DNA of 36,361 nt from Flavobacteriales bacterium (GTDB lineage Bacteria > Bacteroidota > Bacteroidia > Flavobacteriales_D > Crocinitomicaceae), in contig CANCQX010000013.1 in NCBI GenBank assembly GCA_947380375.1, positions 1-36,361 of the forward strand. Direction: 5' to 3'. Positions 18,910 through 36,361 of the stretch are shown here, piece after piece; the stretch's first letter is position 1, and the number at the start of each line of letters is the position of its first letter. The notes under the pieces were generated by a model. The model searched no databases and was not told where the DNA came from. It worked only from the letters and a program-made list of their open reading frames with translations. The position numbers and the translations under genes are program-made.

Positions 18910-19093
18910 AATTTTATTCAAATCAACCTTTAATTTTATTTTTTCTTTTCAACTAAATTAATTTTTCTATAAAACCTTTTATTTAAGTGAATAAGGAATG
19001 GATTAACAATTTTTTTAGTTTTTTAGTTTTCTTTTAAAAATTTGTTTTTCAATAATTTAATCATTATTTCACTTTAAAAAAGTTATCATATAA

Positions 19094-19126
19094 TTTGCTT
19101 TGTATTATCAATATTTAATATATTTG
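19094..19126 (+). promoter_or_regulatory. Promoter of the 1645-aa T9SS protein
   Basis: TTTG (19094-19097), a 21-bp spacer and TATATTTG (19119-19126) match the Bacteroidota promoter consensus, 29 bp upstream of the ATG at 19156. Confidence 0.68.
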
Positions 19127-19155
19127 CGGTCAAATAATTTAAAATTAATTAAAAT

Positions 19156-22100
19156 ATGAAAAAAAGATTACTTTATAACTGGGCTTTGATCCTGTTATTA
19201 TTAGTTAATTCGACTGTTCTTATGGCTCAGTGGACCCCTCAAAATACGGGTTTTACTACAGCTAATAGAGCAATTAGTCAAATTAGCATTGTGGATGCTA
19301 ATACTGTCTGGGCAACAGCAGTAAATGGAAATGATGGAACGGGTGTTTCAGATTTTACAAGAACTACAGATGGTGGAACTACTTGGACACCAGGTACATT
19401 TGATTTTGCTAGTTCTGCAGATTATTACCTTACTAATTTGCATGCAATGAGTGCTACAACAGCTTTTGCTGCGATGCCTCCAAAAGGTGCAAATGGTGGT
19501 GTAATTGCTAAAACAATAAATGGTGGAGTAAATTGGTCGATAGCAAACTCGCCAGATTTTTCTGCTTCATGGTTAAACTGGGTGCATTTCTTCGATGCAA
19601 ACAACGGTGTATGTATGGGGGATCCTGATCCTGCTTCAGGAGAATTTGTAATTTATACTACTAGTAATGGTGGTACTTCTTGGACAAAAATAGATGGTGC
19701 TAAAATTCCAAATGCAATTGCTGCAGAAAATGGACAAGCTAGTAAATACGACTTTGTAGGAAATTCAATTTGGTTTACAACTGGTAAAGCTAGAGTATAT
19801 GCATCTTCAGATAAAGGTTTAACTTGGACTGTTTCTTCTCCAGGAATTACTTTAACGAGAGTTAAGTTTAGAACTCAATTGGATGGTATTGCATATGGTG
19901 CGGGAAATCCTGTTGGTGCAGGATATGGTGGTGCTAGTTATTCTGCAGATTTAAGAAAAACATCTGATGGAGGTAAAACATGGGAGAGATTATCTCCTAC
20001 TGGTTTTTATTTAAAAACAGCAGCTAAAAAATTATTCGTTGGTGAATTAGCAAATGTACCTGGTACAACTACATGGTTTAATACAGCGGGTAGTACAGTT
20101 TATAATGGTTCTTCTTATAGTTTTGACGATGGTGTTTCGTATTTGAATATTGATACAACTGGTACAAATAGATACACGTGTGCAAAATTTTTAGATGCAC
20201 AAACAGGTTGGGCTGGAAGTTTCAATACAAGCTCTACTGTAGGTGGTATTTATAAATGGTGTTCTGTAGCAACTCCTACGATTGGATCTATTACACAACC
20301 TCTTACACCTACAGGAACTGGAAGTGTCGTTTTCAATAATTTACCTGCTACAGGTACTTGGAATATTGAAAAAGTCACAACTTCTGCTACAACAACTCTT
20401 GTTACAGCTGGTTCTGGAACTACAACAACCGTTTCTAATCTTGCTCCTGGAAGATACAGATTTAGAGTTAATTATGGAGGATGTTTATCAATGGTAACAG
20501 ATGAAATCGTTATATCTGCGATGACACAAGCTACGAATATTACTTTCACAAACCTTTCTGATAATTCAATGACGGTTAACTGGACAAGAGGTACAGGTGA
20601 TAAAGTTATTGTTGTGGCTAGAAGAGGAAGTGCTGTAAATACAAATCCTGGCAATCTTGTTAATGCATCTACTACACAATATAGTGAATATTATGATGAT
20701 CCAGCTTTTGGATTGGGTCAATCAGTTGGAACTTTAAATTGGACTGTTTATAATGGTACAGGTACTTCCGTAGATGTAATAGGTTTACTTGCTGGTGTTG
20801 ATTATCATTTTGCTGTATATGAATATACTTCTTCAACTGTTGGTACTACAATTAATACAAATTATTTAATACCCGCTCTAGTTGGTAATGAATCAACTAC
20901 TACAATTTTATCTAATGGACCGTGTAGTAATTTTAATTATCTTGCAGCTAATGCACAAAATGTTAGTGGTAACTATAATGAGGTACCACCAGGAAACGAA
21001 ATTGTAACAGCTTCTTTTGAAGATGAAAATTCTATTCCTCAGGATATAGGTTTTGACTTTGAATACAATTGTCAAACTTTCAATCAATTTGTATTGAATA
21101 CGAATGGATCTATTAAATTAGGAACAGTAGGAACTTTCCCATATCTTCGCCCAAATACTTTAGATTATTTCGGTGGAACTTTAAATGGTTCAAGTGCAGC
21201 AATTACAAATATTATTCATGCTTTCAACCATGCTTTATCAGGTGAGAATGGTGTTACTGAATATAGTATGATTACAACAGGAACTTCACCGAATCAAATT
21301 TGTACAATTCAGTTCAAAGATGTGAAGGAAAGAGTTGGTTCAATTGCAGCTCAAAATGATGCTCCAGTACAATTCAGTAAAATGAATTTTCAAATCAAAT
21401 TGTATGAAACAACAAATGTAATTGAAGTTGTTTACGGTGATTTTACTTCTTCAGCTACTGCAATTATTTCACCTTCTACTAAATTTAAAAGTGTTACATG
21501 TGGTTTAAGAGGTTCTAGTTTTGACAATTTTCAATCATTGATTGTTAATAAATTTGATCCTACATTAACTTGGGATAAAGCAACTTTTTCTAACACAATT
21601 GGTCAAGGTTCAGGTATAATATTTGGTAATACAACTACTAATTCAGCTTATTCTAAACCAGATGCAGGTAGAACATTTAGATTTGTTCCAACACCTAGTA
21701 AAGATTTATCTGTAGTTCAAATTTATTCTATGGGTGAAGCTTCTTCAAAGTTATCAAATGCTCAAAAAATAGCAGTTAAAATTTCAAACATAGGTTTGGA
21801 TGATTTGGTAAATATTGATGTAACTTTAAATGTATCAGGTGTTTCAAATGTAACAGAAATTAAAAAAGTTACATTAAATGCAGGTGAAAGTACGGTGGTT
21901 TCTTTCTCGGATTTTTCTGCAACTTCAAATGGAACGAATACAATAACAGTTTCTCTTCCTTCGGATGGGAATCTTTTAAATAATACGAAGACATTGACTC
22001 AAAATGTATCTGATTATGTTTGTAACAATTCTACAACTACTGATGGCCCAAAATCAGCTTATGGAGGTACAGCAGGTGGTGCATATTTTGTGAAATATAC

Positions 22101-24093
22101 TTCAAGTTCTTCTCATTCTAAAGTTGAGAAAGTAAAAGTATTTATTTACGATTATGCAAATAATACTGGAAAATCTATTCAAGCAGTAGTTTTAAATGAT
22201 GCTAATGCTAAAATAGGAGAGTCAACTCCTTATACTATTCTAGCTACTGATTTAGGTACTTGGAAAGAGTTTACTTTAGTTTCGCCTGTTGTTATTACAA
22301 ACGGTGCTTTTTATGCTGGTATTACTTTTGCCGCTGTCGCTACTGGATCTCAAGGATACTTTCCTATAGGTGTTCAATCAGAATCAACTATTAGAAAAGA
22401 TGCATATTTTTCTTCAGCTGAAAATTTATCTCTTTTCAGTGAAGATATTGCTTCTTCTTCTGTAAGATATATGATTGGTGCTACATTATCTGAAATTCTA
22501 GCTCCAGTAGCAGGAACAGTAGGTGCTGCAAGTTCAGTTTGTACTGGAAATACTGTTGATTTAACATTATCAGGTTCTACAGGAACAATACAATGGCAAA
22601 AATCGGTAGATAACGGTACTAATTGGTCAGATATTTCAGGTGCTACTTCAGCTACTTTAACATCTGCAGCTTTAACTGTTGCAACTTCATTCCGTGCAGT
22701 TGTATCTCAAGTTACTTATCCTTCTGTAAATGCTACTAAAGTTGATATAGTGGTTAATTCATTACCAACAGCAACAATTACTGGAAATACATCTTTCTGT
22801 GAAGGAACTTCAGTTCAATTGACATCTTCTCAAGGTTCAAGTTATGAATGGAAAAATGGAGCAAATGTTTTAAGTGGACAAACTGCTATATATACTGCAA
22901 CAGCCGCTGGAAGTTATACAGTAAAAGTAACTGATGGAAATGGTTGTTTTAAAGTTTCAGATGCTAAAGTTGTTTCAGTTACAACAAACGTAGCTCCACA
23001 TTTCGATCCAGTTGCAGTGTGTTCAGGTGGTACTCCATCAATATCAAAAACTTCAACAAATGGTATTACAGGAGAATGGACACCACCATTTGGAGCAATT
23101 ACAGTTAGTACACCGTATTTATTTACAGTTGATGCAAATCAGTGTGTAACTTCACCTACTGTTAACTTCACTGTAACCATTGCTTCTCCGGTAACACCAA
23201 TATTCGCTACACCAACAGCAATTTGTTCAGGAGCTACAGCTTCGTTACCAACATTTTCAACAACTAATAGTACGAAGATAGATGGTAATTGGACACCTCC
23301 ATACGCTCCAATAACAGCAGAAACAGAGTATACTTTTACAGCAACAACTGTAGGATGTTTTACAACTGCTAAAGTTAAGGTACCAGTTAATCAATATGTG
23401 ACACCAATATTTAATGCTCCAACAGCAATTTGTTCAGGATCATCAGCTTTGTTGCCAACAAGTTCAATAACTAATAGTACGACGATTGATGGTAATTGGA
23501 CACCTCCATATGCTCCAATAACAACTGCAACTGATTATACTTTCACAGCAACTACTGCTGGATGTTTCAATACTGCAAAAGTTACGGTACCAGTTAATGC
23601 TTTACCAACAGCAACAATTACAGCTATTGGTAATACATCTTTCTGTCCAGGTGGTTCAGTTCAATTGACATCTTCTACAGGTGTAAGTTATGAGTGGAAA
23701 AAAGACGCTACAGTTTTAAGTACAACTACTCAAACTTATTCTCCAACAGCTACTGGAAATTATTCAGTAAAAGTAACTGATGGTAATGGTTGTTCTAATG
23801 TATCAGCTGCTAAAGTTGTAACGGTACTTAATTGCGCTGGAATAGAAGAGTTAACATTAGAAAGTATAAACGCTTATCCAAACCCAACTGTAGGTAAATT
23901 AAATTTATTTACTCCAATTGAGTTAACAAATGCAAATGTTCAATTAGTTGATATTGCAGGAAAAGTTGTTTTCTCTTCTAAAATGAACTTTACAAAAGAT
24001 TCATCAACTGAATTTGATTTCAATGAACTTTCAAATGGTAATTATATCTTGAAAGTAAATGAATACCAAACTAAAGTTGTAATCAACAAATAA
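19156..24093 (+). CDS. Large T9SS-secreted multidomain surface protein (BNR/YCF48, FN3, Ig-like repeats)
   Basis: This 1645-aa protein has a signal peptide (about 1-25, ending LMAQ). The N-terminal part (about 28-370) has repeated TTDGGTTWTPG / TSNGGTSWTKIDG / TSDGGKTWERLSP units typical of BNR/YCF48-like beta-propellers. An FN3-like domain follows (about 455-575; TNITFTNLSDNSMTVNWTRG). Middle sandwiches (about 590-830, and CARDB-like at about 850-945) come next, then a jelly-roll-like section (about 960-1110). A series of Ig-like repeats (about 1120-1555) contains a 69-residue unit present twice (VTPIFATPTAICSG...WTPPYAPIT) flanked by a repeated 'LPTATIT...NTSFC' domain. The end is a T9SS type A sorting domain (about 1565-1645; AYPNPTVGKLNLFT). 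It is likely an adhesin or surface fibre. A strong terminator follows. Confidence 0.9.
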   Translation: MKKRLLYNWALILLLLVNSTVLMAQWTPQNTGFTTANRAISQISIVDANTVWATAVNGNDGTGVSDFTRTTDGGTTWTPGTFDFASSADYYLTNLHAMSATTAFAAMPPKGANGGVIAKTINGGVNWSIANSPDFSASWLNWVHFFDANNGVCMGDPDPASGEFVIYTTSNGGTSWTKIDGAKIPNAIAAENGQASKYDFVGNSIWFTTGKARVYASSDKGLTWTVSSPGITLTRVKFRTQLDGIAYGAGNPVGAGYGGASYSADLRKTSDGGKTWERLSPTGFYLKTAAKKLFVGELANVPGTTTWFNTAGSTVYNGSSYSFDDGVSYLNIDTTGTNRYTCAKFLDAQTGWAGSFNTSSTVGGIYKWCSVATPTIGSITQPLTPTGTGSVVFNNLPATGTWNIEKVTTSATTTLVTAGSGTTTTVSNLAPGRYRFRVNYGGCLSMVTDEIVISAMTQATNITFTNLSDNSMTVNWTRGTGDKVIVVARRGSAVNTNPGNLVNASTTQYSEYYDDPAFGLGQSVGTLNWTVYNGTGTSVDVIGLLAGVDYHFAVYEYTSSTVGTTINTNYLIPALVGNESTTTILSNGPCSNFNYLAANAQNVSGNYNEVPPGNEIVTASFEDENSIPQDIGFDFEYNCQTFNQFVLNTNGSIKLGTVGTFPYLRPNTLDYFGGTLNGSSAAITNIIHAFNHALSGENGVTEYSMITTGTSPNQICTIQFKDVKERVGSIAAQNDAPVQFSKMNFQIKLYETTNVIEVVYGDFTSSATAIISPSTKFKSVTCGLRGSSFDNFQSLIVNKFDPTLTWDKATFSNTIGQGSGIIFGNTTTNSAYSKPDAGRTFRFVPTPSKDLSVVQIYSMGEASSKLSNAQKIAVKISNIGLDDLVNIDVTLNVSGVSNVTEIKKVTLNAGESTVVSFSDFSATSNGTNTITVSLPSDGNLLNNTKTLTQNVSDYVCNNSTTTDGPKSAYGGTAGGAYFVKYTSSSSHSKVEKVKVFIYDYANNTGKSIQAVVLNDANAKIGESTPYTILATDLGTWKEFTLVSPVVITNGAFYAGITFAAVATGSQGYFPIGVQSESTIRKDAYFSSAENLSLFSEDIASSSVRYMIGATLSEILAPVAGTVGAASSVCTGNTVDLTLSGSTGTIQWQKSVDNGTNWSDISGATSATLTSAALTVATSFRAVVSQVTYPSVNATKVDIVVNSLPTATITGNTSFCEGTSVQLTSSQGSSYEWKNGANVLSGQTAIYTATAAGSYTVKVTDGNGCFKVSDAKVVSVTTNVAPHFDPVAVCSGGTPSISKTSTNGITGEWTPPFGAITVSTPYLFTVDANQCVTSPTVNFTVTIASPVTPIFATPTAICSGATASLPTFSTTNSTKIDGNWTPPYAPITAETEYTFTATTVGCFTTAKVKVPVNQYVTPIFNAPTAICSGSSALLPTSSITNSTTIDGNWTPPYAPITTATDYTFTATTAGCFNTAKVTVPVNALPTATITAIGNTSFCPGGSVQLTSSTGVSYEWKKDATVLSTTTQTYSPTATGNYSVKVTDGNGCSNVSAAKVVTVLNCAGIEELTLESINAYPNPTVGKLNLFTPIELTNANVQLVDIAGKVVFSSKMNFTKDSSTEFDFNELSNGNYILKVNEYQTKVVINK
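22759..23845 (+). repeat. Nested internal repeats in the 1645-aa protein gene
   Basis: A 207-bp (69-codon) unit starts at 23194 and again at 23401 (both open with ACACCAATAT). The pair is bracketed by two related domains starting near 22759 and 23603, sharing TTACCAACAGCAACAATTAC and TTCAATTGACATCTTCT. The A-B-B-A layout indicates recent in-frame duplication. Confidence 0.8.
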
Positions 24094-24121
24094 AAGTTTT
24101 TAGAATAATTAACTTTATTTA

Positions 24122-24153
24122 CCCTCTCCCTAATTTAGGGGGAGGGTTTTTTT
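24122..24153 (+). terminator. Rho-independent terminator after the 1645-aa protein gene
   Basis: CCCTCTCCCT (24122-24131) pairs with AGGGGGAGGG (24137-24146), with one G-U and a 5-nt loop, and is followed by seven T. It is a strong terminator 29 bp after the stop codon and insulates the CHAT gene. Confidence 0.92.
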
Positions 24154-24200
24154 ATGTCTAAACGATTCCACTCTTTTTCTAAACAAAAGAAATTTTAAAT

Positions 24201-26678
24201 ATGTACCTATCAGCTATAATTTTAAAATCAGCTTTTTTAGTATTCATTATCATTCTTCCATTTTTTGGTCAAGCAGGTAAATCTTCAAACTCAAATGAAG
24301 ATAGACTAAAAATGGCTGAAGAATTAATAGAAGATGGTTCTATTAATATAGCTCATTTACTACTAGAAGACTATTTAAAATCACCAAATTTATCGAAAGA
24401 TAAAAAATACATAGCTTATAAAGACCTCGCCAAAATTCATTTGTACGAACAAGATTTAGTGAATTATGAAATACTAAACCGAAAAGCGTATGAATTAAAG
24501 AAAGACGAGGGAGAAATATACAAAGGAATGTATTATGCTGAAAAAGCATATTTTTGGCATTTTCTAACATGGGGAGATAGTGCAGCGTATTACTCCAATC
24601 GATCGATGGAAATTATTCAACGCAACCGAAAGGATTTTTCTAAAGTGAACATTGCATTTGTATATCAAATGTATAGCATTGGCTTTCTATACAGAAAAAT
24701 TGATCCTAATATCAAAGTAAAAGTACATCATGATTTACCAGTTGCAAGAATAGTAATGAATCAATATTTTGATTCGGCTAAAGTCTATGAAAATAAATAT
24801 CCTTTTCAGTTTAGTTCTGATAGAGTAATGTTATACAGAGGAGTTGGAACAAGATATTTAGACCTCGTATCAGGCTATAATTATAGATATAAAGACTTTC
24901 AAAAATTAATGAATCATCAACAATGGTTTGCCTATAATAAAGCTCTAGAAGCTTATATTTATACAGATAAGTATATAATTAATCCCAAAAATTGGAATGA
25001 CATCATTTATACTAAATCGCTCTTAGGATTGAATTACATGTGTATAGGTGAAAAGTTGAAAGCAAAGATGCTTTTCAATACTATTTTAAGAAATTATTTG
25101 AAAGTATATAAATCATTTGAAAAAAGTCCAAATGCCCAAGCTTTGTTAAACCTTTATTCTTATAAAATTATAAATGATGAATCTTTGCCTTATAATGACA
25201 AACAGACAAAAAATGATATTATTATATTAAAGCAATTGCGTAATAGTTGGTGGTCAACTTTTATTCAATCAAAAGAATATAATTATGATACGTATAGCTC
25301 ATCTCCAAGTTATTATCTATTTAAATTATACCTAAGAAGATACTTTATTAAAAAAAACAAAAGTGATTTAAAATTCGCAACCTCTCATTTATTTTCCCAA
25401 ATTTTAAATTTTCATTTTATAAATAAATACAATAGAACTAATAATCACCGATTAAACAATGCATTTTTGGAATACTCTAGGTTAAGTAGTAAAAATTTAA
25501 AAATAAAAATCGGTCACATATTAAAATTAAATTCATCAGAATTACCAGAAGCTCCTAAAATTTCTATTTCACTTATTCAGAATCGCCTCAATGAGAACGA
25601 ATGCTTTTTAATACCTTGTTTTAGGAAATCTTTTGATGATTCATATAAAATTGTGATTACCAAAAACAATGTATCAATTGTCAAATCTAAGTGCGAGTTG
25701 AATTTTACATCGATTGATTTTGATACAATGTCCTTCATTAATTATAAAAAATATGCTTTTAAGGAATACAATGATAAAATTAACTCCGTTCTCAAGGCCA
25801 ACAAATCCATATCAAAAGTTTATGTTATGTATTATGATTATTCGAATTATTCAAATATGATTAGAGATACATTGGGTAAAAATTACGATCAATTAAATTA
25901 TCTTGGGAAAAAGATTCAAATTGTAACGTTATATAATCCTTACGAATATTTTACTAGAACTAAAATTTTAACTAAAAATAAACTTCAATTTATTAAACTG
26001 AATAATAAAAAATTAAGTAAACTTCCTTTTATTGATCATTTATCTTCAAAAACATTTAATCCATTAGTATCTTCAAAATTAATATTTAAAGGCAATCTTC
26101 AAGAGTTATTCGTTTCCAGCGGTATTTTACATTTATTTGGACACGGAAGCTTGATCTCAAATAAGGATTCGGGTTCTAAAAATATAGAATTACCCTATCA
26201 ATCAAATTCTACAGATAGTAGTATTTCAAAAATAAATAGTAATCAACTTGTAAATAGCTATTTAGTTGTCTTAAATAATTGTTACTCGGGTTACAATTCA
26301 AATGTAAGTTCTAGAGAATTCGATCGAGGTATTTATTTAAATTTACTAAATAATGGAGCTTTAAATGCAATCGTTAGTCCAATAAAAATAGATGACGAAA
26401 GTTCTTCTAAAATCTTCCACTTTTTTTATAAAAACATTGCAAAAGGCGAAACAACAACTGATGCTCTTTACCACGCTCAACTATCTTATCTAAATACAAA
26501 TAAAGGAATTATGGCTCATCCTAAATTTTGGTCACCTTATCGTTTAATTACAAATTATCCGTATTCGATCTTATCCGTCGAAAAAAATCAAAATGATGTA
26601 TTTTTTTATTGTTTGCTATGCTGTTTTATTTTAGTTTCGGTTGGATTTCATTTACATGTTCAAATGAAGCATTTTTAA
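24201..26678 (+). CDS. TPR-CHAT caspase-like peptidase, predicted exported and C-terminally anchored
   Basis: This 825-aa protein has an N-terminal hydrophobic segment (about residues 4-24, signal-peptide-like, ending FFGQAG), a long helical TPR-type region (about 30-430) and a C-terminal CHAT domain (about 455-785). CHAT is the caspase-HetF-associated fold, a cysteine peptidase of clan CD. The dyad is visible: H648 in HLFGHGS and C694 in LNNCYSG, 46 residues apart, as in the family. The 'GALNAIVSPIKIDDESSSKIFHFFY' and 'TDALYHAQLSYL' segments match the later conserved blocks. A hydrophobic C-terminal helix (about 799-818) suggests anchoring, so the peptidase would face the periplasm. It runs into a sigma-factor/TPR membrane-protein operon on the other strand, with a 53-bp 3' overlap. 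The likely substrate is the periplasmic domain of that TPR protein (inference). Confidence 0.85.
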   Translation: MYLSAIILKSAFLVFIIILPFFGQAGKSSNSNEDRLKMAEELIEDGSINIAHLLLEDYLKSPNLSKDKKYIAYKDLAKIHLYEQDLVNYEILNRKAYELKKDEGEIYKGMYYAEKAYFWHFLTWGDSAAYYSNRSMEIIQRNRKDFSKVNIAFVYQMYSIGFLYRKIDPNIKVKVHHDLPVARIVMNQYFDSAKVYENKYPFQFSSDRVMLYRGVGTRYLDLVSGYNYRYKDFQKLMNHQQWFAYNKALEAYIYTDKYIINPKNWNDIIYTKSLLGLNYMCIGEKLKAKMLFNTILRNYLKVYKSFEKSPNAQALLNLYSYKIINDESLPYNDKQTKNDIIILKQLRNSWWSTFIQSKEYNYDTYSSSPSYYLFKLYLRRYFIKKNKSDLKFATSHLFSQILNFHFINKYNRTNNHRLNNAFLEYSRLSSKNLKIKIGHILKLNSSELPEAPKISISLIQNRLNENECFLIPCFRKSFDDSYKIVITKNNVSIVKSKCELNFTSIDFDTMSFINYKKYAFKEYNDKINSVLKANKSISKVYVMYYDYSNYSNMIRDTLGKNYDQLNYLGKKIQIVTLYNPYEYFTRTKILTKNKLQFIKLNNKKLSKLPFIDHLSSKTFNPLVSSKLIFKGNLQELFVSSGILHLFGHGSLISNKDSGSKNIELPYQSNSTDSSISKINSNQLVNSYLVVLNNCYSGYNSNVSSREFDRGIYLNLLNNGALNAIVSPIKIDDESSSKIFHFFYKNIAKGETTTDALYHAQLSYLNTNKGIMAHPKFWSPYRLITNYPYSILSVEKNQNDVFFYCLLCCFILVSVGFHLHVQMKHF

Positions 26679-27351
26679 TATCTAAATCTATTGAATTAAC
26701 CAATGATTTAAAAAGTGTATTTGAGGTCTTAAAATCCCTCCTTTTATATCCAATAAGCCCTAAATAGTAGATAGATTTATCTTTATAATTAGAAGTTATT
26801 AAATTTTGTATTTTTTGAAATTGGGTTTTGGCTGCTTTTAAATTGTTTAGTTTAAATTTTACAACTCCCGAAAAATAGATTAAAGTATCATTTTTCGGAT
26901 TTTCAATTAAGGCTTTTTCAATTTGTTGATCTGCTTTAAAATAATTTTTTGTTTTAAAATCAAACATAATATCTTCCCAATTGGAAGTAGTTGTAGTTGA
27001 CATATAATTGATTAAACCAGGTTCTTCAAATTGATGTGACAATGTTATTACATTCTCTTGTCTATTATATAAGAAGGTTCCTGTAGCAAGTATAAGCGCA
27101 AAGACTGCGGCATATTTAAGGTAAGTTGAAAATCGATTTTTGTTTTTTAATGGTTTGACTGTTTTTGTTTTACTCTCTTTTAAATAATTTTTTATTTTTT
27201 CAATATCTCCATTAAATGAGTCATATATTATAATAATTCCTTCTGTTTCTTCCGACAGATTAGTTGATGACTTCAGAAACTCTATTTTTTGTTTTAAAGC
27301 AATAGGGTTGTCTAAAAGTTCAATTAATTGGTTCAATTCAGAATTTTCCAT
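26626..27351 (-). CDS. Single-pass TPR membrane protein, anti-sigma-factor-like
   Basis: This protein has 241 residues from the ATG at 27351. The longer frame starts with TTG at 27378 and adds nine residues without support. An N-terminal cytoplasmic segment (about 1-72; acidic helices, MENSELNQLIELLDNPIAL) precedes one TM helix (about 76-95, YLKYAAVFALILATGTFLY). A periplasmic part with two to three TPR units follows (about 120-232; YFKADQQIEKALIENPKNDT, LKAAKTQFQKIQ). The start codon lies inside the 3' end of the sigma gene (19-bp overlap), which indicates translational coupling. The topology of a short cytosolic region, one TM and a sensory outer domain is that of an anti-sigma factor, although no ZAS (H-x3-C-x2-C) motif is present. 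Its 3' end overlaps the CHAT gene by 53 bp. Confidence 0.78.
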   Translation of the reverse strand: MENSELNQLIELLDNPIALKQKIEFLKSSTNLSEETEGIIIIYDSFNGDIEKIKNYLKESKTKTVKPLKNKNRFSTYLKYAAVFALILATGTFLYNRQENVITLSHQFEEPGLINYMSTTTTSNWEDIMFDFKTKNYFKADQQIEKALIENPKNDTLIYFSGVVKFKLNNLKAAKTQFQKIQNLITSNYKDKSIYYLGLIGYKRRDFKTSNTLFKSLVNSIDLDIKNASFEHVNEIQPKLK

Positions 27352-27884
27352 ACAATTAAAATTATTAAATTTTTCCAAATATAAACTAGTTTTTTGCGAG
27401 ACAAACTCAGTTTATTCCGTACCGTTTTTTCAGAATAATTGAATTTTTCACCAATCTCTTTATTTTTATAACCCTCTAAATGAAGAAGGATTAACTCCTT
27501 TTCATCGTCATTCAAAAGAGAAATACATCGATCAGTATATTCTTCATTAATGAATTTGATTTCAGTTTTTGTTGCTTGGTTTTTTATCCAATCATTTCCT
27601 AATTTATCTCGATTGGTTTTTGTTCTAACCGCATCAATAGATTTGTTTTTGATTATAATAGTTAAAAATGCTTTCAACTCTCTAACTTCTTGCCATTTTG
27701 TTGCTCTATCGCTTATAGAAGTTTCTAAAAGTGTAGTAAATAATTCCGAAATGAGATCTCTAGAAATTTCTAAATCACGGGTATATTTTATAGAAATAAA
27801 TAATAAAGGTTGAAATAACGTTTCATACAAGCTAGCTAATGCTAGATTATTTCCTTCAATAAATTCGTTCCATTTTTCCTTCAT
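27333..27884 (-). CDS. ECF-like sigma-70 factor
   Basis: This 183-aa RNA polymerase sigma factor has region 2 at about residues 12-88 (helices LALASLYETLFQPLLF, ISRDLISELFTTLLE, VRELKAFLTIIIKNKSIDAV) and region 4 at about 115-168 (LLNDDEKELILLHLEGYKNK, IGEKFNYSEKTVRNKLSLS helix-turn-helix). No region 1 or 3 is present, which fits the ECF/group IV class. The C-terminal tail (about 169-183) is unusually hydrophobic and is encoded where the gene overlaps the TPR membrane-protein gene. The product would direct polymerase to its own promoter class and be held by the co-encoded membrane protein. A 7-bp inverted repeat (27888-27903) sits directly upstream. It diverges from two small HTH regulator genes. 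Confidence 0.86.
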   Translation of the reverse strand: MKEKWNEFIEGNNLALASLYETLFQPLLFISIKYTRDLEISRDLISELFTTLLETSISDRATKWQEVRELKAFLTIIIKNKSIDAVRTKTNRDKLGNDWIKNQATKTEIKFINEEYTDRCISLLNDDEKELILLHLEGYKNKEIGEKFNYSEKTVRNKLSLSRKKLVYIWKNLIILIVWKILN

Positions 27885-27887
27885 TCG

Positions 27888-27903
27888 AATGTAAAGTTAC
27901 ATT
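27888..27903. promoter_or_regulatory. Inverted repeat upstream of the sigma gene
   Basis: AATGTAA (27888-27894), a 2-bp spacer and TTACATT (27897-27903) form a perfect 7-bp inverted repeat ending 3 bp before the sigma-gene ATG. On the minus strand it overlaps TAACTTTA, one base away from the -7 consensus. It could be an operator for one of the neighbouring regulators. Confidence 0.4.
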
Positions 27904-27988
27904 TATTCTACCACTATTTTTTTACTATATTAAAAAGCAATCAAAAATTTATACTGAACTGATATTTCATAAAAAACAACTTTCTTTG

Positions 27989-28031
27989 TCAAATTGATTT
28001 TTCTAGATTAATATCAATATTCAAATTGATT
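27989..28031 (+). promoter_or_regulatory. Direct repeats TCAAATTGATT in the divergent regulator region
   Basis: The 11-mer TCAAATTGATT occurs at 27989-27999 and 28021-28031, 32 bp apart (about three helical turns), between the sigma gene and the first HTH gene. Equal-face spacing suggests a binding site for a dimeric regulator, possibly one of the two HTH proteins. Confidence 0.45.
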
Positions 28032-28076
28032 AGGGACATTTTAATAAGTTGTTCGACATCATTTTAAATGACAAAT

Positions 28077-28310
28077 ATGAATATCACAAAGATTAAACAT
28101 TTTATTCACCTAGTTGAAAAAGAGAGGACAGGATCAGCAAAAGCTGCCGCCCAAAGACTAGGTGTTTCAGAGCGAATGGTTTTTAATTATGTTCATATTT
28201 TAAAAAATAAATTAAATGCCCCCATAAATTACAACCGAAACAAACAAACTTTTGTATTTAGTGAGAATGGTCGATTAATTTGGCAGTGGATTCCTAAAAA
28301 TGAATGTTAA
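28077..28310 (+). CDS. Small HTH regulator, first of a tandem paralogous pair
   Basis: This 77-aa DNA-binding protein has a winged-helix/HTH_11-like fold (TGSAKAAAQRLGVSERMVFN recognition region, about residues 19-38) followed by 'LNAPINYNRNKQTFVFSENG', a wing-like beta hairpin common in short Bacteroidota regulators. I use the ATG at 28077 rather than 28068 because MNITKIKHFI then aligns with MNIEKLQKMI at the start of the next gene. The pair shares about a third of positions. No ligand domain is present. It diverges from the sigma gene; the intervening 180 bp holds direct repeats and an inverted repeat. In other Bacteroidota such small regulators commonly sit next to genes for small secreted peptides; none was seen here. 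Confidence 0.72.
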   Translation: MNITKIKHFIHLVEKERTGSAKAAAQRLGVSERMVFNYVHILKNKLNAPINYNRNKQTFVFSENGRLIWQWIPKNEC

Positions 28311-28345
28311 AACTTTACCAATCAACATTTACCCCCTATTAAAAA

Positions 28346-28573
28346 ATGAATATCGAAAAATTACAAAAAATGATTGATTCTATTTCTCAAGAGAATACAG
28401 GAACGCCTTCAGAGTTTGCGACTAAATTAAATGTATCTGAAAGGGCGATTTATAAAAACATTTCCATATTGAGGTTAGAATTTAGTGCACCTATTAAGTA
28501 TTGCCGAAAACGAAAATCGTATTGTTTTACAGAAAGCGGAAGCCTTGATTTGACATGGCAGGAAGAAAACTGA
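28346..28573 (+). CDS. Small HTH regulator, second of a tandem paralogous pair
   Basis: This 75-aa paralogue of the preceding product has the same plan: TGTPSEFATKLNVSERAIYK HTH (about residues 18-37) and the wing 'FSAPIKYCRKRKSYCFTESG'. The hairpin carries two cysteines (Y-C-R and Y-C-F) absent from the first copy, which could bind metal or respond to redox; this is speculative. It starts 35 bp after the first gene and is probably co-transcribed. Together they might form a heterodimer or bind the TCAAATTGATT direct repeats upstream. Confidence 0.7.
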   Translation: MNIEKLQKMIDSISQENTGTPSEFATKLNVSERAIYKNISILRLEFSAPIKYCRKRKSYCFTESGSLDLTWQEEN

Positions 28574-28806
28574 TTAATTAATATTTAGACTGAATTTATA
28601 GTTCTATCGTTTTTTTTGTAATTATAATGAAGCGGTTTCCGAAAAACTGATCTTTTGTCGCTTAATATGAAAGAAAGTGGTTGTTCAATTTTAGTGATTA
28701 TCTCGTAAAGTATACAAAAAATACCAACAAACATAAGTTCACTGGTATTTATATAGTATACGTTAATAGATGTTAATGACTATGTTATCTAATTCAGAAA
28801 AATAAA
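28574..28806. other. 233-bp intergenic region with a long-loop inverted repeat
   Basis: This region lies between the second HTH gene and the stop of the acidic-protein gene (both genes point in). The only structure I see is AAATACCA (28719-28726) paired with TGGTATTT (28743-28750), with a further GTATAC on each side, which may serve as a shared terminator for the converging transcripts. No coding frame is present. Confidence 0.4.
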
Positions 28807-29175
28807 TTATTCTTCATCAGAATCTTCGTTGTCATCATCTTCTTCGTCATCATAACTAGACTTTTTAGATTTATTTTTAGGGAGGTCATCTTCTTCATCC
28901 TCCTCTTCATCTAAATCGTCTGGCTTAATGATGTCATCTTCAAGATCATCTTCGTCATCATCGTCATCATCCAATGCTTGAGTCATTGTTTTTGTAATTT
29001 TCACTAAATAAATTATCTCTTCAGTTTCCCAAATTAAGGCTTCTAAAGATTCACCAGCTGGAGTTTTTATTTGTGTAATAAAACTTCCATATCCATCAGG
29101 AAAACTTTTTGTTAATTCTTTTCTTTGTACAGCTGTTAATTTATCATAACTAACAATCGCTCGCTTTTTGGCCAT
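28807..29175 (-). CDS. Conserved Flavobacteria-type small protein with acidic tail
   Basis: This 122-aa protein has an N-terminal globular half (residues 1-68; KKRAIVSYDKLTAVQRKELT, GYGSFITQIKTPAGESLEALIWETEEIIYLVKI) and a C-terminal half made almost wholly of Asp/Glu (about 69-122) with one basic KNKSKKS patch. The N-terminal part matches a family found throughout Bacteroidota that automated annotation often labels 'DNA primase'; nothing in it resembles primase catalytic motifs, so I do not adopt that name. The acidic tail could mimic DNA or bind a basic protein. It is encoded 10 bp downstream of the 95-aa protein gene in what is likely one transcript. Confidence 0.75.
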   Translation of the reverse strand: MAKKRAIVSYDKLTAVQRKELTKSFPDGYGSFITQIKTPAGESLEALIWETEEIIYLVKITKTMTQALDDDDDDEDDLEDDIIKPDDLDEEEDEEDDLPKNKSKKSSYDDEEDDDNEDSDEE

Positions 29176-29185
29176 GATTTTATGT

Positions 29186-29473
29186 TTAAATTTCTAATTT
29201 TATTATTCTTCTAATTGGAATCACTACATTTTTTTTCAACAATATAGCGTGATCAGTAATCGCCCAAATTGTAGTGTCTACAACTTTTTCTCCATTATCA
29301 TCAGCAAAGAAAATCTTTACTTTAGAATGTTCAATATTACCTAATGAAATGGCGCGATCAAGTTCGCTTTTAAGAAATTTTCGATCACTTTCATTTTTTA
29401 AAATTTCCCCTTCAGGAAATTGAAATGAAGATACGAGCTCTTTCTCTACTAATTTGAACTTACTAATTTCCAT
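29186..29473 (-). CDS. Conserved Bacteroidota small protein
   Basis: This 95-aa protein with mixed alpha/beta sequence (ESDRKFLKSELDRAISLGN, KVKIFFADDNGEKVVDTTIW, AILLKKNVVIPIRRI) has no signal or TM segment. I use the ATG at 29473. A longer frame would begin at TTG 29491, but that TTG belongs to a -7 element, so it cannot be the translated start. The C-terminal part reads like a short beta-sheet domain of a conserved hypothetical family. It is co-transcribed with the acidic-tail protein. Function is unknown. The pair stands divergent from era, with an inverted low-complexity block between them. Confidence 0.72.
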   Translation of the reverse strand: MEISKFKLVEKELVSSFQFPEGEILKNESDRKFLKSELDRAISLGNIEHSKVKIFFADDNGEKVVDTTIWAITDHAILLKKNVVIPIRRIIKLEI

Positions 29474-29488
29474 ATTTTGAATTTTCGG

Positions 29489-29496
29489 CAAAAATA
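29489..29496 (-). promoter_or_regulatory. -7 element of the 29473-28807 operon
   Basis: TATTTTTG (minus strand) matches TAnnTTTG and lies 15 bp before the ATG at 29473. No -33 TTG is visible in the usual window. The element overlaps the alternative TTG start, which supports the ATG. Confidence 0.45.
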
Positions 29497-29534
29497 AATT
29501 AAATGATTTAGAATCCTACTATTTTTTTAAAAAA

Positions 29535-29716
29535 GGTTTAGGTTGAGATTAAGGGTGAGATTAAGGGTGAGATTGAACTTAAGATTTAGATTTAGGTTGA
29601 GACGAAGGGTTAGTAAAAAGTAATTAAAGAAATAGGTTTAAGTTCTCAACCTCAGTCTTAATACTTATCTTAGCCTCAGTCTCAACATCAGTCTCAACCT
29701 CAACCTTAATCTTAAA
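29535..29716. repeat. Degenerate purine/pyrimidine inverted-repeat block upstream of era
   Basis: The left arm (about 29535-29612) is purine-rich, made of degenerate units such as GAGATTAAGGGT (perfect tandem copies at 29545-29556 and 29557-29568) and TTTAGGTTGAGA. The right arm (about 29645-29716) is the pyrimidine-rich complement (CTCAACCTCAGTCTTAAT, CAGTCTCAACCTCAACCTTA). About 30 bp separate the arms. The transcript could fold into a long imperfect hairpin. Its position between two divergent promoters is notable. Confidence 0.7.
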
Positions 29717-29727
29717 AAAATAATCAT

Positions 29728-29735
29728 TACATTTG
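29728..29735 (+). promoter_or_regulatory. -7 element upstream of era
   Basis: TACATTTG matches TAnnTTTG 20 bp before the era ATG at 29756. A -33 TTG is not evident, because the upstream sequence is the inverted-repeat arm. Confidence 0.45.
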
Positions 29736-29755
29736 TGTTTAAAATTTGAAATAAA

Positions 29756-30631
29756 ATGTCCCATAAAGCAGGGTTCGTAAATATTGTCGGTAGTCCAAAC
29801 GTTGGTAAATCAACGTTGATGAATCGACTAATGGGCCAAAAATTATCTATTGTCACCCCAAAAGCACAAACTACTAGACATAGAATCTTAGGAATTGTGA
29901 ACGAAGATGATTACCAAATTGTATTCTCAGATACACCTGGTGTTGTAAATGCAGCTTATAAAATGCATGATGCCATGATGGGCTATGTGAATTCTGCTAT
30001 ACAAGATGCTGATATTCTAATTTTCATTACTGATATTTTCGAAGACGAAATGAATCATTTGGAGACGTTAGAAAGAATAAAAAAATTAGAAATTCCTGTT
30101 ATTACTTTAATTAATAAAATTGATTTAGGTACACAAGAAAAAATAATGGAGCGTATTTCATATTGGCAAGAACGTTTACCAAAGTCGTATGTATATTTAA
30201 TGTCTGCACTTCATGGTTTCAATATTGATCTTCTTTGGGAAAGAATTTTAAAAATGACTCCTGAAAGTCCTGCCTATTATGATAAAGAAGATGTTTCTGA
30301 TCGACCGATGCGTTTCTTTGTTTCTGAAATAATAAGAGAGAAAATTTTTATACATTGTCAAAAAGAGATACCCTATTCTTGCCACATTGATATTGAAGAA
30401 TATGTTGAAGAACCTGGCTTAATTCGTATTCGTGCCTTAATTATTGTTGAACGCGATTCTCAAAAAGGAATTGTAATTGGAAAAGGCGGTGAAATGTTGA
30501 AACGAATCGGTAGAGAAGCACGTCAAGAAATAGAGCCATTTGTTGGTCAAAAAGTATTCTTAGAAACTTTTGTAAAGGTTGATAAAGACTGGAGAGCGAC
30601 TGATAGTAAATTAAAAAAATACGGATATTAA
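29756..30631 (+). CDS. era: GTPase Era
   Basis: Essential GTPase for 30S ribosomal subunit maturation that binds the 3' end of 16S rRNA. It has 291 aa, the normal length. The G domain has G1 GSPNVGKST (residues 12-20), switch I with TTRHR (39-43), G3 DTPG (59-62) and G4 NKID (120-123). A C-terminal type 2 KH RNA-binding domain (about 200-285) carries the GKGG loop at 242-245. It is followed after 113 bp by der, and the two GTPase genes are likely co-transcribed. The upstream inverted-repeat block and -7 element make up its regulatory region. Confidence 0.97.
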   Translation: MSHKAGFVNIVGSPNVGKSTLMNRLMGQKLSIVTPKAQTTRHRILGIVNEDDYQIVFSDTPGVVNAAYKMHDAMMGYVNSAIQDADILIFITDIFEDEMNHLETLERIKKLEIPVITLINKIDLGTQEKIMERISYWQERLPKSYVYLMSALHGFNIDLLWERILKMTPESPAYYDKEDVSDRPMRFFVSEIIREKIFIHCQKEIPYSCHIDIEEYVEEPGLIRIRALIIVERDSQKGIVIGKGGEMLKRIGREARQEIEPFVGQKVFLETFVKVDKDWRATDSKLKKYGY

Positions 30632-30633
30632 AT

Positions 30634-30738
30634 TGATTGCAAATTGGCAAATTACAAATTACAAATTGAAAAATTACATATGAATTGTAATCTTAAATTA
30701 TCTAATCTGGAATCTGCAATTTTTAATCTGTAATTAAT
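30634..30738. repeat. ATTACAAATT-family repeats between era and der
   Basis: The gap contains tandem ATTACAAATT words on the plus strand (around 30650-30670) and inverted versions (TGAATTGTAATC, AATCTGCAATTTTTAATCTG) to its right, so it can fold back on itself. The words match the tandem repeat at 15609-15645. This suggests a dispersed intergenic repeat family. Confidence 0.55.
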
Positions 30739-30744
30739 TAAAAA

Positions 30745-32055
30745 ATGAGTAACATTATAGCAATTGTTGGTAGACCAAATGTAGGAAAATCTACTTTATT
30801 TAACCGTTTAACTGAATCCACTAATGCGATTGTAAAAGAAATTAGCGGTGTAACTAGAGACCGTTTGTACGGGCGAGGTGAGTGGAATGGATTCCAATTT
30901 TCAGTTATTGATACCGGAGGATATGTTCACGGATCAGAAGATATTTTTGAAGCTGAAATTCGTAAACAAGTAATTATTGCAATTGAAGAAGCAAATGTTA
31001 TTGTTTTTATGGTAGATGTTACAACTGGAATTGTCGATTTGGATGAAACAGTTGCTCAAATGCTGAGAAAATCAAAGAAAAAAGTTTTTATCGTTGCAAA
31101 TAAAGTTGATAATACAGGAAGAATAGGTCTTTCAGCTGAATTTTATCAATTTGGTTTAGGAGATGTTTACGATATGTCTGCTACAAATGGTTCTGGGACA
31201 GGTGAATTGTTAGACGATGTTGTGAAATGTTTTGACATCGAAGACGATTCAGTTCGTGAAACAGATGATTTACCTAAAATTGCAATCGTAGGAAAACCTA
31301 ATGTTGGTAAATCTTCTTTAGTAAATGCTTTAACAGGTGAAGAAAGAAATATAGTAACTGATATATCTGGAACAACTCGTGATTCAATAAACACTCGCTA
31401 CAAAGCATTCGGTTTTGATTTTATGATGGTAGATACTGCTGGAATTCGTAAAAAAGCAAAAGTTACTGAAGATTTAGAATATTATTCTGTGTTGCGTTCT
31501 GTTAGAACTATTGAAAGTGCAGATGTCTGTATTTTTATGATCGATGCAACTGAAGGGATACAAAAACAAGATTTACATATTTTTTACGTAATTGAAAAAA
31601 ATTCAAAAGGTGTTGTTGTAGTTGTAAATAAATGGGATCTAGTTGAAAAAGAGACCAATACAATGATGGAATACGAAGAGAAAATTCGTGAACAATTGGC
31701 TCCTTTTAATGATGTTCCAATTATCTTTACTTCAACAATTACAAAACAAAGACTTCATAAAACAGTTGAAGCTGCTATGACTGTTTATGAAAATAGGACG
31801 AAAAAAATCGCAACTTCTGTAATTAATGATGTGATGTTGGATGTGATTGCTGCAACACCTCCTCCATCTATTAAAGGGAAATATGTTCGTATAAAATATG
31901 TTCAACAATTACCAACATACGGACCTTCTTTTGCATTTTTCTGTAACTTACCTCAGTACATTCCAGATAGTTATAAACGTTTCTTAGAGAATAGATTACG
32001 TGAAAAATTTGATTTCTGTGGTGTTCCTGTAAGAATTTATTTTAGAAAAAAATAA
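30745..32055 (+). CDS. der: GTPase Der (EngA)
   Basis: Essential double-GTPase for 50S ribosomal subunit assembly, 436 aa as expected. GTPase domain 1 has GRPNVGKST (residues 9-17), DTGG and NKVD. Domain 2 has GKPNVGKSS (183-191), DTAGI and NKWD. A C-terminal KH-like domain (about 350-436) ends with basic residues. It lies 113 bp after era and 9 bp before the Ppx/GppA-family gene, so era, der and the phosphatase may form one transcription unit. Confidence 0.98.
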
Positions 32056-32064
32056 TTAGTAATA

Positions 32065-32940
32065 GTGAAGTACGGTGCTATCGATATAGGAACAAATGCT
32101 GCTCGTTTATTAGTAGGAGAAGTTACAACTGAAAATGGGCATTCTTTTGTGAAGAAGATTTCCTACACAAGAATTCCTTTGCGTTTAGGTGAGGAAGTTT
32201 TTGAAGATGGAAAAATCTCGAATAAAAAAGCAATTGATTTCGTTAAAACGATTAAAGCATTTCGATTAATTTCAGAAATTTTTGAAGTTTCAGAACTTCG
32301 TGCTTGTGCAACTTCTGCAATGAGAGAAGCTTCTAATGGTTTAGAAATAAAAGAATTAATCAAAAAAGAAACAAATGTTGATATTGAAATTATCAGCGGA
32401 AATGAAGAAGCAGATCTTATTTTTGGAACCTTCTTTTTATTAGATTTCGACAAAAATATTTCTTTCGTCGTTATCGATGTTGGAGGCGGAAGTACTGAAG
32501 TTAGCGTTTTTGAAAAAGGAGAACGTGTAGCCTCAAAATCATTTGAAATCGGAACTATTCGATTATTGAAAGGTAAAGTGAACGAAGATATTTGGAAAGA
32601 TATTCATTCATGGATTGCAAATCACGTTGATTTAGAAACCGTTCATCAAATTTTTGCAACTGGTGGAAATATCAACAAAGTACATAAAATGTTGGGAGCT
32701 CAACATATGGAAACGATTTCTGTTCGTAAAATGAAGGAATTGAGAGAAGAAATTAATGAACTAACTGTAGATCAACGCGTTGAAAGGTTTCAATTAAAGC
32801 CTGATCGTGCTGACGTAATTGTACCCGCAATGGATATTTATTTATACATTATGAAAGAATTGAAATGCAAAAATATTATTGTTCCTAAAATTGGTTTATC
32901 TGATGGTATGATTTACGATATGCATTTAAAAAGAAATTAA
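32065..32940 (+). CDS. Ppx/GppA-family phosphatase
   Basis: This 291-aa enzyme of the ASKHA fold hydrolyses polyphosphate and/or pppGpp. The phosphate-1 loop is at the N-terminus (AIDIGTNAARLLVGEV, residues 4-19). The second conserved glycine loop is IDVGGGSTEVSVF around D138, and 'ATSAMREASNG' (about 90-100) and an adenosine-like motif (FATGGNINKV) complete the fold. The start is GTG at 32065, 9 bp after the der stop. It has only the catalytic two-lobe core and lacks the C-terminal HD domain of E. coli Ppx/GppA, as is usual in Bacteroidota. It cannot be assigned to Ppx or GppA from sequence alone. Confidence 0.9.
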   Translation: MKYGAIDIGTNAARLLVGEVTTENGHSFVKKISYTRIPLRLGEEVFEDGKISNKKAIDFVKTIKAFRLISEIFEVSELRACATSAMREASNGLEIKELIKKETNVDIEIISGNEEADLIFGTFFLLDFDKNISFVVIDVGGGSTEVSVFEKGERVASKSFEIGTIRLLKGKVNEDIWKDIHSWIANHVDLETVHQIFATGGNINKVHKMLGAQHMETISVRKMKELREEINELTVDQRVERFQLKPDRADVIVPAMDIYLYIMKELKCKNIIVPKIGLSDGMIYDMHLKRN

Positions 32941-33044
32941 TATATTTGATTAATTTTAATTAAAATAATTTTAAATTTAAGTGATTTAATATAATAATTA
33001 CTAATTCGTCTAAATAGTTTTTTAAAAAATAAATTAATTACATT

Positions 33045-36000: not shown

Positions 36001-36299
36001 ATGATCAATTGTATATCAACGTAGATGAAATTAATAATACATCAGGATTAGGAATTCAAGAAAAATCGACAAATGAATATTTAATTTATCCAAATCCTTT
36101 TAATGATTATCTAACAATTACACTTGGTAATCAGAAATCTTCAGAAATCAGCATCACTGATAATACAGGAAAAATAATGAAGTCATATACAACTAATGAA
36201 TCTGAAGTCACAATAAAAACAGATAATTTATTACCTGGATTTTATATTTTAAAAATTAAAAATGGTAGTTCTATTAAATCAATAAAGCTTTTAAAATAA
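33045..36299 (+). CDS. T9SS-secreted Ig-like repeat surface protein
   Basis: This 1084-aa protein has a signal peptide (about 1-24, ending NIFSQ). Putative Ig/BIG2-like domains follow (about 205-290 and 290-352; TATISSTGLVTGVGIGKTTI and VATVSSTGEVSAIGSGTTTI), then PKD/SprB-like segments (about 355-505). Three consecutive 75-residue repeats (about 505-730) each start 'NPGNQ..CD...LP.ISG.NLSGN.KYYD'. A T9SS type A sorting domain ends the protein (about 1010-1084; LIYPNPFNDYLTITL, NLLPGFYILKI). It is predicted to be exported by the T9SS and surface-attached, with an adhesive or matrix role. I see no promoter with a clear consensus (TAGTTTTT near 33016 is one base off). Confidence 0.88.
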   Translation: MKKYIFKSLFVGILCFLGSNIFSQTLTLVSDNATLNQSVCVNTPIIEIKYDVSTDITSVSVEGLPNGVTHDFNITSHILTINGTPTDIVNTTFTITTTGGVNSISAYGTINVEQLNLPSTIDGFKCSNENITFEYQSNPAYIWSHNGNGNFVYNYSGSNPQYIPSKNDEGTNVKITVKLTNSCGTDSKDFNYSILKTPSFTGNLTTNPSATVQLIGSETTGFNWTSSIVDTATISSTGLVTGVGIGKTTITYELTHLDNAGATITTCQYSQILSVVQLITPTISGNNIICKGTTTQLTGSENAAINNPWLSSNTNVATVSSTGEVSAIGSGTTTITYTNSTNGNTTFALTVNGPNVNAGPDQSICLGNSVVLNATGANSYSWNNSVVNGISFIPTLGTKTYTVTATENNCTATADVEVIVNLKPELVITNPTAVCSPSTVDITDIAVTSGSTSGGILSYWTESQCINILNNPNAIINSGPIFIKTTLGNCFDVKPVMVDIKPSPNITNPGNQIICDLYSLPIISGTNLSGNVKYYDNSKANNGIQLLGPISKNQILWIYDDNNGCNYETSFEVTINKTPSITNPGNQTICDSLELPNISGVNLSGNQKYFDNSKANNGVQITKPINSNKTVWIYDESGSCSDEKSFEIKIIKTPKLTSPGNQIVCDSYNLPTISGINLTGNEKYYDKSQAEHGIQITGPIKSSQNVWMYDSIKACANEIGFEVTINTTPVLKITNPDKVDYPTKINITLAGVTEGSTGNGTLSYWINTESSIELINPSEISMSGTYFIKSTVGNCSDTNFVTVTINKKDIPTKLLSAYVVPTGVSNNGLCDGKAEVVITAGAAPYTYLFSDNLTTSSALNLCSGLKSVRVADANKDTLNLEFIIPSPENVKSTDNLKDSTVVDKLFNKVVSNCIIDYTKIDYAKINKYKILSKDSVEIEWQIYSGLTVISITNKYSIHVISTSGVYQFTLQIYCPNKMMGNFLTAYDQLYINVDEINNTSGLGIQEKSTNEYLIYPNPFNDYLTITLGNQKSSEISITDNTGKIMKSYTTNESEVTIKTDNLLPGFYILKIKNGSSIKSIKLLK
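34563..35237 (+). repeat. Three in-frame 225-bp repeats in the 1084-aa protein gene
   Basis: Equivalent words (AATCCAGG..ATCAAA) begin at 34566, 34791 and 35016 (AGTCC in the third), exactly 225 bp (75 codons) apart. All three units share ATATCAGG, AAATATT..GATAA.TCA and TGGAT.TATGA. The constant length shows in-frame tandem duplication. Confidence 0.85.
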
Positions 36300-36361
36300 A
36301 ACTCATTATTTAGATTAGTTCTATATTGATTTTTATTAAATAATAAATTTATGGCTATTTT

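Follow-up and report, generated by a model that had tools for sequence, protein, structure and literature searches.

A candidate envelope-to-nucleoid switch built from a CHAT protein, a TPR membrane protein and an ECF sigma factor in Flavobacteriales

In the type III-E CRISPR system Craspase, the TPR-CHAT protein Csx29 cuts Csx30, an inhibitor of CASP-sigma (RpoE), and the source describing this names RseA and DegS as a case in which sigma release begins with the cutting of a membrane-bound anti-sigma factor (PMC10028731). DdvS acts once DdvA has been inactivated, the signal being unknown in that account (PMC4374960), and CHAT, subtilase or carboxypeptidase genes occur near ECF54 (ECF, extracytoplasmic function), for which proteolytic control was proposed from gene context (PMC8999054). 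Here we report on positions 24201-28573 of a 36,361-nt stretch from a Flavobacteriales bacterium (Crocinitomicaceae; assembly GCA_947380375.1, contig CANCQX010000013.1, positions 1 to 36,361), which we call the window. Five open reading frames (ORFs) were confirmed there (Table 1), encoding a TPR-CHAT protein, a TPR protein with one transmembrane (TM) helix, hereafter TPR-TM, an ECF-type sigma factor and two small helix-turn-helix (HTH) proteins, HTHa and HTHb. An earlier sequence-only reading had described all five, with an H648/C694 dyad in the CHAT protein, the CHAT gene tail-to-tail with the coupled sigma and TPR-TM genes, and a paralogous HTH pair, and each was found where that reading had placed it.

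We propose that the CHAT, TPR-TM and sigma proteins form a three-part switch from envelope to nucleoid, in which a first cut by the CHAT protein in the TPR-TM linker leads to sigma release; we give this reading a probability of about 0.5 and regard the mechanism as plausible and testable. The TPR-TM protein, with a cytoplasmic N-terminal domain, a single TM helix and a periplasmic TPR domain, would keep the sigma factor at the inner membrane. The TPR-CHAT protein would be anchored in this membrane too, its protease domain facing the periplasm; it would sense a periplasmic signal and then make the initial cut in the juxtamembrane linker at the M117-S118 bond (M-S/G in the window group, mostly R-G/S elsewhere). 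Further proteolysis would free the sigma factor, which here would turn on the HTH pair by way of a GGGACA-N15-CGAC promoter. Its targets in some related genera would also include operons whose products are mostly exported, and the HTH proteins may feed back. The earlier suggestion that the CHAT protein could cut the membrane protein and release the sigma factor is partly supported, and the proposed cleavage has become more specific because the linker carries a conserved motif.

The three genes are conserved as a set. The window CHAT protein was matched in 12 of 79 genomes, its own included, the close matches being five genomes of the same genus and G025; in those relatives the sigma and TPR-TM orthologues adjoin the CHAT gene, and in some more distant relatives (L082, L083, L084, L086, L088) the sigma gene, the TPR-TM gene and a longer CHAT gene all lie on one strand. 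In a sample of 299 genomes of the order, PF12770 was found in 58 genomes with 88 listed matches, whose surroundings were fetched and scored by script. Among the 87 CHAT proteins with a complete C-terminus, 49 end in a TM helix (six of them fragments or short ORFs below 600 amino acids) and 38 do not; the truncated L088, which has the trio, does not enter the Fisher tables. Up to 300 bp from the CHAT gene, a sigma gene with a single-TM partner after it is present for 25 of the 49 versus none of the 38, and the counts become 28 versus 0 within 1 kb, 35 versus 0 within 3 kb and 37 versus 1 within 7 kb (Fisher p 2e-8 to 3e-13, kinship uncorrected). Counted per genome, the pair is found within 3 kb of a CHAT gene in 34/39 genomes with a C-terminally anchored CHAT protein and in 0/22 others. 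The association between sigma gene, TM partner and C-terminally anchored CHAT protein is real and far beyond chance. Joint conservation in relatives, a check set by the earlier reading, thus came out in its favour for these three genes; the HTH pair was met in loci of the window's family only.

A profile of the TPR-TM protein matched in all 39 genomes with a C-terminally anchored CHAT protein, which are among the 42 positive genomes in the matches listed; a genome was called positive when a match spanned 190 or more of the 244 positions, with 9 candidates scored per genome, so that weaker members may escape. The profile had been built from 27 of the 39 genomes, and the other 12 were all positive too, some of them being close kin of the 27. 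In four genomes (G024, G545, G563, G387) an unpaired CHAT gene and an unpaired sigma/TPR-TM pair sit on separate contigs, and in G559 CHAT and TPR-TM pieces are on two contigs. Pairs with no CHAT gene on their contig, and three TPR-TM genomes in which none was found, would fit genes that adjoin through common ancestry or by chance while functioning separately. This is highly improbable, since the pair lies within 3 kb of 0/38 control CHATs, and since the loci differ in layout (convergent or co-directional) while the gene set stays together.

The TPR-TM protein is a proposed anti-sigma factor that would bind and inhibit the sigma factor. Its gene is coupled to the sigma gene by a 19 bp overlap and, by the family-level count of lysine and arginine (K/R), the protein is predicted to have a single TM helix with the N-terminus inside, the arrangement looked for in an anti-sigma factor. 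In the structure model (mean pLDDT 91.1) four N-terminal helices precede the TM helix, a looser linker and TPR helices from residue 125, with TPR fold matches reaching Z 16.2 over residues 121-241. The TM segment of the window protein is weak by hydropathy (peak 1.5, below the 1.6 threshold), yet it forms a helix in the model. No known anti-sigma family was matched by the N-terminal domain in a profile search at E up to 1, and a profile of this domain gave nothing convincing against the PDB (3hug, which we take to be an anti-sigma complex, at E 0.4); identity with a known anti-sigma domain was accordingly dropped. The matches listed in the fold search cover the TPR part, so the N-terminal domain was barely probed by it. 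As a separate observation, G408, in which no CHAT gene was found, encodes at L179:7191-8072 a 293-amino-acid fusion of a sigma-like N-terminus, a TM helix and a TPR domain with a PGLPVKM motif.

Both the TPR and the CHAT domain are expected in the periplasm because K/R residues gather before the TM helix of the TPR-TM protein and in the C-terminal tail of the CHAT protein. By these positive-inside counts, K/R are richer before the helix in 40/43 TPR-TM proteins (opposite in 1) and in the C-tail of 30/42 CHAT proteins (opposite in 5). The hydrophobic N-terminal segment and C-terminal TM helix of the window CHAT protein likewise predict a periplasmic, membrane-anchored protein, its signal peptide being judged from N-terminal hydrophobicity and not by a dedicated predictor. 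The sequence-only reading had put both domains on the periplasmic side, and the predicted topology agrees.

Peptidase activity of the CHAT protein is predicted from its dyad and its caspase/separase-like fold. The window protein matches PF12770 with 50.4 bits (cut-off 24; E 2.8e-13), and H648 and C694 are invariant across a 24-sequence CHAT alignment. Aligned without the 96-residue L160, the dyad is intact in 45/45 C-terminally anchored CHATs with a sigma/TM pair within 7 kb, in 10/10 unlinked anchored ones and in 37/39 lacking the C-terminal helix. The best PDB fold matches of the model (mean pLDDT 84.7) are Csx29/TPR-CHAT, DdvA and separase: Foldseek gave E 6e-10 for Csx29 and 5e-7 for separase, both at probability 1.00, with low full-length TM-scores and a large root-mean-square deviation. 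Searched against the PDB as a single sequence, the window protein had no match at E up to 1, whereas the 24-row CHAT profile matched DdvA. A likeness of TPR-CHAT to separase has been described (PMC9729208).

The DdvA match carries a second possibility, namely that the CHAT protein is a periplasmic partner that does not cleave, binding the TPR domain of the anti-sigma factor and altering its grip, as a split form of DdvA. PDB entries 8rot and 8rw5 bear the title transmembrane anti-sigma factor DdvA and the name CHAT domain-containing protein; the window CHAT protein matches them by fold and by profile, and in them sensor and anti-sigma factor form one chain. We assume from the name that they represent DdvA of Myxococcus xanthus or an orthologue, the entries giving no organism. 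A non-cleaving partner is nevertheless rather unlikely: the His/Cys dyad is kept in 45/45, and the residue two before the Cys is among the two columns varying most with the linker residue. Nor does DdvA itself argue for loss of catalysis, because it keeps His and Cys in the alignment.

That the linker is the substrate of the CHAT protein is suggested by a motif in the one and covarying columns in the other. A linker motif between TM helix and TPR domain is common to 42 TPR-TM proteins. Of the residues in its key column 29 are M and 10 are R, with one each of L, S and V; one linker of G592 enters this count twice, as two CHATs share it. The three linkers with L, S or V carry a basic residue and then S or G nearby (L114 LKG, L138 SRSG, L142 ETRS). 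With phylum and by-genome pairs added, we count 32 M-type and 23 R/K-type linkers, followed mostly by S or G (by D in L127); for these classes the false partner L098 was excluded, L124 was set to R-type by hand, its M lying later in the stretch, and the CHAT/linker pairs of L127, L129 and L144 were matched by genome across contigs. In CHAT alignments from which rows under 350-400 amino acids had been excluded, residues 692 and 614 rank first and second of 337 columns at separating M- from R-type. Column 692 holds N24 T4 A3 S1 in the M-type and S22 G1 in the R-type; column 614 is E22 with one gap in the R-type, and Glu is also present there in 33/35 CHATs lacking the C-terminal helix, one of the two exceptions being L088, the truncated CHAT of a trio locus. 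When columns 610, 614 and 692 are withheld from the CHAT tree, the M-type needs 3 changes. Each of the three M groups departs from the R state at 692, and two of them have lost Glu614. Residue 610 separates the types less cleanly, F being present in R-type rows too, and over 610-614 the alignment of the M rows L078, L079 and L153 is probably wrong. In proteases with this fold, the P1 residue is recognised by pocket residues near these places, and a hand alignment to caspase-1 would put 610, 614 and 692 in the P1 pocket. For separase, D2151 has been named as the residue for a P1 Arg, with K670 in its place in TPR-CHAT (PMC9729208).

Several observations weigh against our proposal, beginning with this covariation, which cannot reach significance because the M-type arose only about three times (2-3 independent pairs in a sign test). 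The M row L152 keeps Ser692; the group of L123, L130 and L139 has an M-type linker and retains Glu614; and columns 494, 573, 601, 603, 683 and 716 also differ in all three M groups. For the anti-sigma role, distant TPR-TM members match zf-HC2 weakly (7/14, best E 0.016), and the N-terminal domains of the window group and the distant group do not align (hhalign probability 0.3%). The co-occurrence counts bear no correction for kinship. Three genomes (G494, G408, G075) have a TPR-TM protein and no CHAT gene was found in them; the motif may serve another purpose because two of the three keep it in its M-type form. Finally, in a sample of 296 genomes of the phylum (147 with PF12770; 50 listed matches fetched, 10 heading the list and 40 hand-picked at intervals lower down), the pair lies within 3 kb of 8/23 anchored versus 10/26 other CHATs, among 49 with an ORF (L165, without one, left out; partners L222 and L225 doubtful). 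A C-terminal TM helix as general mark of sigma-linked CHATs is thus not borne out: the association extends past the order and the rule of the C-terminal helix does not, because in this sample pairs occur with and without it.

Two further observations may be added. In family f34 of the phylum sample (L172, L219, L229, L233, L238, L239, L249) CHATs that lack a C-terminal TM helix have a sigma/TM pair some 2.5-2.8 kb away, and the linkers have R followed by S, N or A. The CHAT proteins of L185, L186 and L187 are 60-78% identical to that of the window, in records whose titles (Chryseobacterium gleum, Actinomyces viscosus) look mislabelled.

Set beside the described systems, the module may work like both Craspase and DdvA and is classed as neither. 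It shares with Craspase a TPR-CHAT protein beside a sigma factor and its proposed inhibitor, and Csx29/TPR-CHAT structures are best PDB matches of the window model; but Csx29 acts in an RNA-guided complex, whereas the window CHAT protein carries a TM anchor and a signal-like N-terminus, and a membrane TPR protein is proposed here as the anti-sigma factor. DdvA joins anti-sigma, TM and CHAT parts in one chain, while the window has two ORFs on opposite strands. DegS is a serine protease, whereas a caspase-like cysteine protease is proposed for the window. ECF54 has been described as lacking an anti-sigma factor (PMC8999054), whereas the loci counted above have a sigma gene and then a TM partner. 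The sequence-only reading knew of no characterised system of this exact make-up: the open-access literature searched does not contradict it and yielded no description of the sigma/TPR-TM/CHAT trio (subscription papers being mostly outside that search), but Csx29/Csx30/CASP-sigma and DdvS/DdvA are close precedents.

A link to CRISPR or another defence system was considered and is unsupported in the stretch checked. PADLOC run on 10 window proteins (8 of 24 ORFs plus the HTH pair) gave weak HTH matches only, Cas families are absent from the Pfam matches of 18 window proteins, the rest of the genome not having been searched for Cas genes, and no CRISPR-like array is present in 19000-36361.

The sigma factor scores over the cut-off for Sigma70_r4_2 (43 bits, cut-off 25.7), Sigma70_ECF (36.7, cut-off 21.1) and TIGR02937 (56.6, cut-off 42.9); its region 2 (Sigma70_r2, 20.6 bits against 24) and a Bacteroidetes-type sigma model match below their cut-offs. 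This last match, taken with type IX sorting tails, points to Bacteroidota for the genomes analysed. HTHa falls just under the cut-off of HTH_11 and HTHb over it, and the two align as paralogues. The pair is present in 15 fetched sigma loci, all of the window's family, with both genes in 14 and one in L073. It stands outside the wider core and looks like a target of the sigma factor. The pattern GGGAC-N15..17-CGAC, of which 0.03 matches are expected in the window, was matched 28 times across the fetched loci. Half of these matches, 14, stand directly upstream of HTHa and cover 14/15 HTH loci; L073 has a GGAC variant. Likewise, the strict promoter is found at HTHa in 14/15 module genomes. Its six matches in 15 comparison genomes comprise five within ORFs and one at the HTH pair of G002 (L258:8043-8584), which has pair and ECF-type promoter with no adjacent sigma, TPR-TM or CHAT gene. 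We infer that the sigma factor of this locus reads this promoter. In G012, G034, G577 and G025, the genes that follow copies outside long ORFs mostly encode proteins with a hydrophobic N-terminus (the exception being one of two copies in G012), and several more copies in module genomes sit within ORFs. At L259:12023-16465 (G012) and L260:1933-7602 (G034) the promoter is linked to runs of some 5-6 genes whose products mostly have such an N-terminus; these are possible sigma targets.

ECF factors often activate neighbouring genes, and co-directional loci could co-transcribe CHAT with sigma. The CHAT protein might in that case be a sigma output, produced when needed as an envelope protease with other periplasmic proteins as its substrates. 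We find this quite improbable: among the fetched loci no GGGAC-N15..17-CGAC match precedes the CHAT gene of the window's genus, and this explanation leaves the linker motif unaccounted for. No promoter dyad is shared upstream of sigma and CHAT in that genus either, and control of CHAT by the sigma factor is therefore not claimed.

Between the sigma gene and HTHa lies a conserved element, ACTGAACTGATATTTCATA / ACTGAAYTNATATTTCA, an imperfect inverted repeat. At up to one mismatch ACTGAAYTNATATTTCA recurs in 12/15 module genomes versus 4/15 comparison genomes, with 8 mismatch-free matches in G012; a second window copy at 28589-28607 is weak, having 4 mismatches, and shuffles yield about 10 such per 444,668 bases. 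That it is an operator bound by the HTH proteins is speculation.

Within the window, the TPR-TM and CHAT ORFs overlap tail-to-tail by 53 bp on opposite strands; the ATG of the TPR-TM gene is at 27351 and a TTG is present at 27378. Directly before the CHAT gene, positions 19156-24093 encode a 1645-amino-acid protein with a type IX secretion sorting tail, and in G007 and G001 (loci L073, L074) the homologue of a 442-amino-acid gene is directly followed by CHAT. Short direct repeats with a 12-base step occupy 29534-29613, upstream of a GTPase gene. The genome also encodes, on a 3975-base contig without a sigma gene (L137, contig C177), a second CHAT protein of 948 amino acids that has a hydrophobic N-terminus and lacks a C-terminal TM helix.

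Table 1. Features of the locus, in coordinates of the window
Feature	Position	Strand	Basis or remark
TPR-CHAT protein, 825 aa	24201..26678	+	signal-like hydrophobic N-terminus, helical TPR-like region, CHAT match 638-783, C-terminal TM helix 797-824
CHAT residues 610-614 (F to L)	26028..26042	+	614 is Glu in R-type and generic CHATs, non-acidic in most M-type
Catalytic His648 codon (predicted)	26142..26144	+	alignment
CHAT residue 692 (Cys minus 2), Asn in window	26274..26276	+	Ser in 22/23 R-type CHATs; best-separating column
Catalytic Cys694 codon (predicted)	26280..26282	+	alignment
TPR-TM protein, 241 aa, proposed anti-sigma factor	26626..27351	-	4-helix N-terminal domain 1-65, TM 73-96, linker 97-124, TPR 125-240
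Juxtamembrane motif PGLINYMS (residues 111-118), proposed cut M117/S118	26998..27021	-	conserved linker
TM helix of TPR-TM protein (residues 73-96 in model)	27064..27135	-	model, hydropathy
ECF-type sigma factor, 183 aa	27333..27884	-	profile matches
Conserved element ACTGAACTGATATTTCATA / ACTGAAYTNATATTTCA, imperfect inverted repeat	27953..27971	.	recurrence in module genomes
ECF-type promoter GGGACA-N15-CGACA before HTHa	28033..28058	+	conserved; sole strict match in own genome
HTHa, small HTH protein, 80 aa	28068..28310	+	most relatives start at the residue equivalent to ATG 28077
HTHb, HTHa paralogue, 75 aa	28346..28573	+	HTH profile, alignment

In conclusion, our analysis makes the module directly testable, because it names a candidate protease, substrate, cut site and promoter. 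Only tentatively do we extend the proposal to an envelope pathway of the whole phylum. In it a membrane-anchored CHAT protein would be the protease reserved for the initial cut in an ECF anti-sigma factor, its pocket coevolving with the site cut (M|S-G or R|G-S), and the pathway would match Csx29/Csx30/sigma without CRISPR and DdvA in split form. A class I anti-sigma domain has been reported nearby for 6% of Bacteroidetes ECF sigma factors, with broken synteny or another mode of control suggested (PMC7406223), and the module is a candidate for such another mode in Bacteroidota. In the envelope it would parallel a logic that has until now been described for a CRISPR system. If the proposal is true, bacterial CHAT proteases would have a common role beyond CRISPR and cell death, and this would suggest that the logic of Craspase was drawn from older housekeeping signalling.

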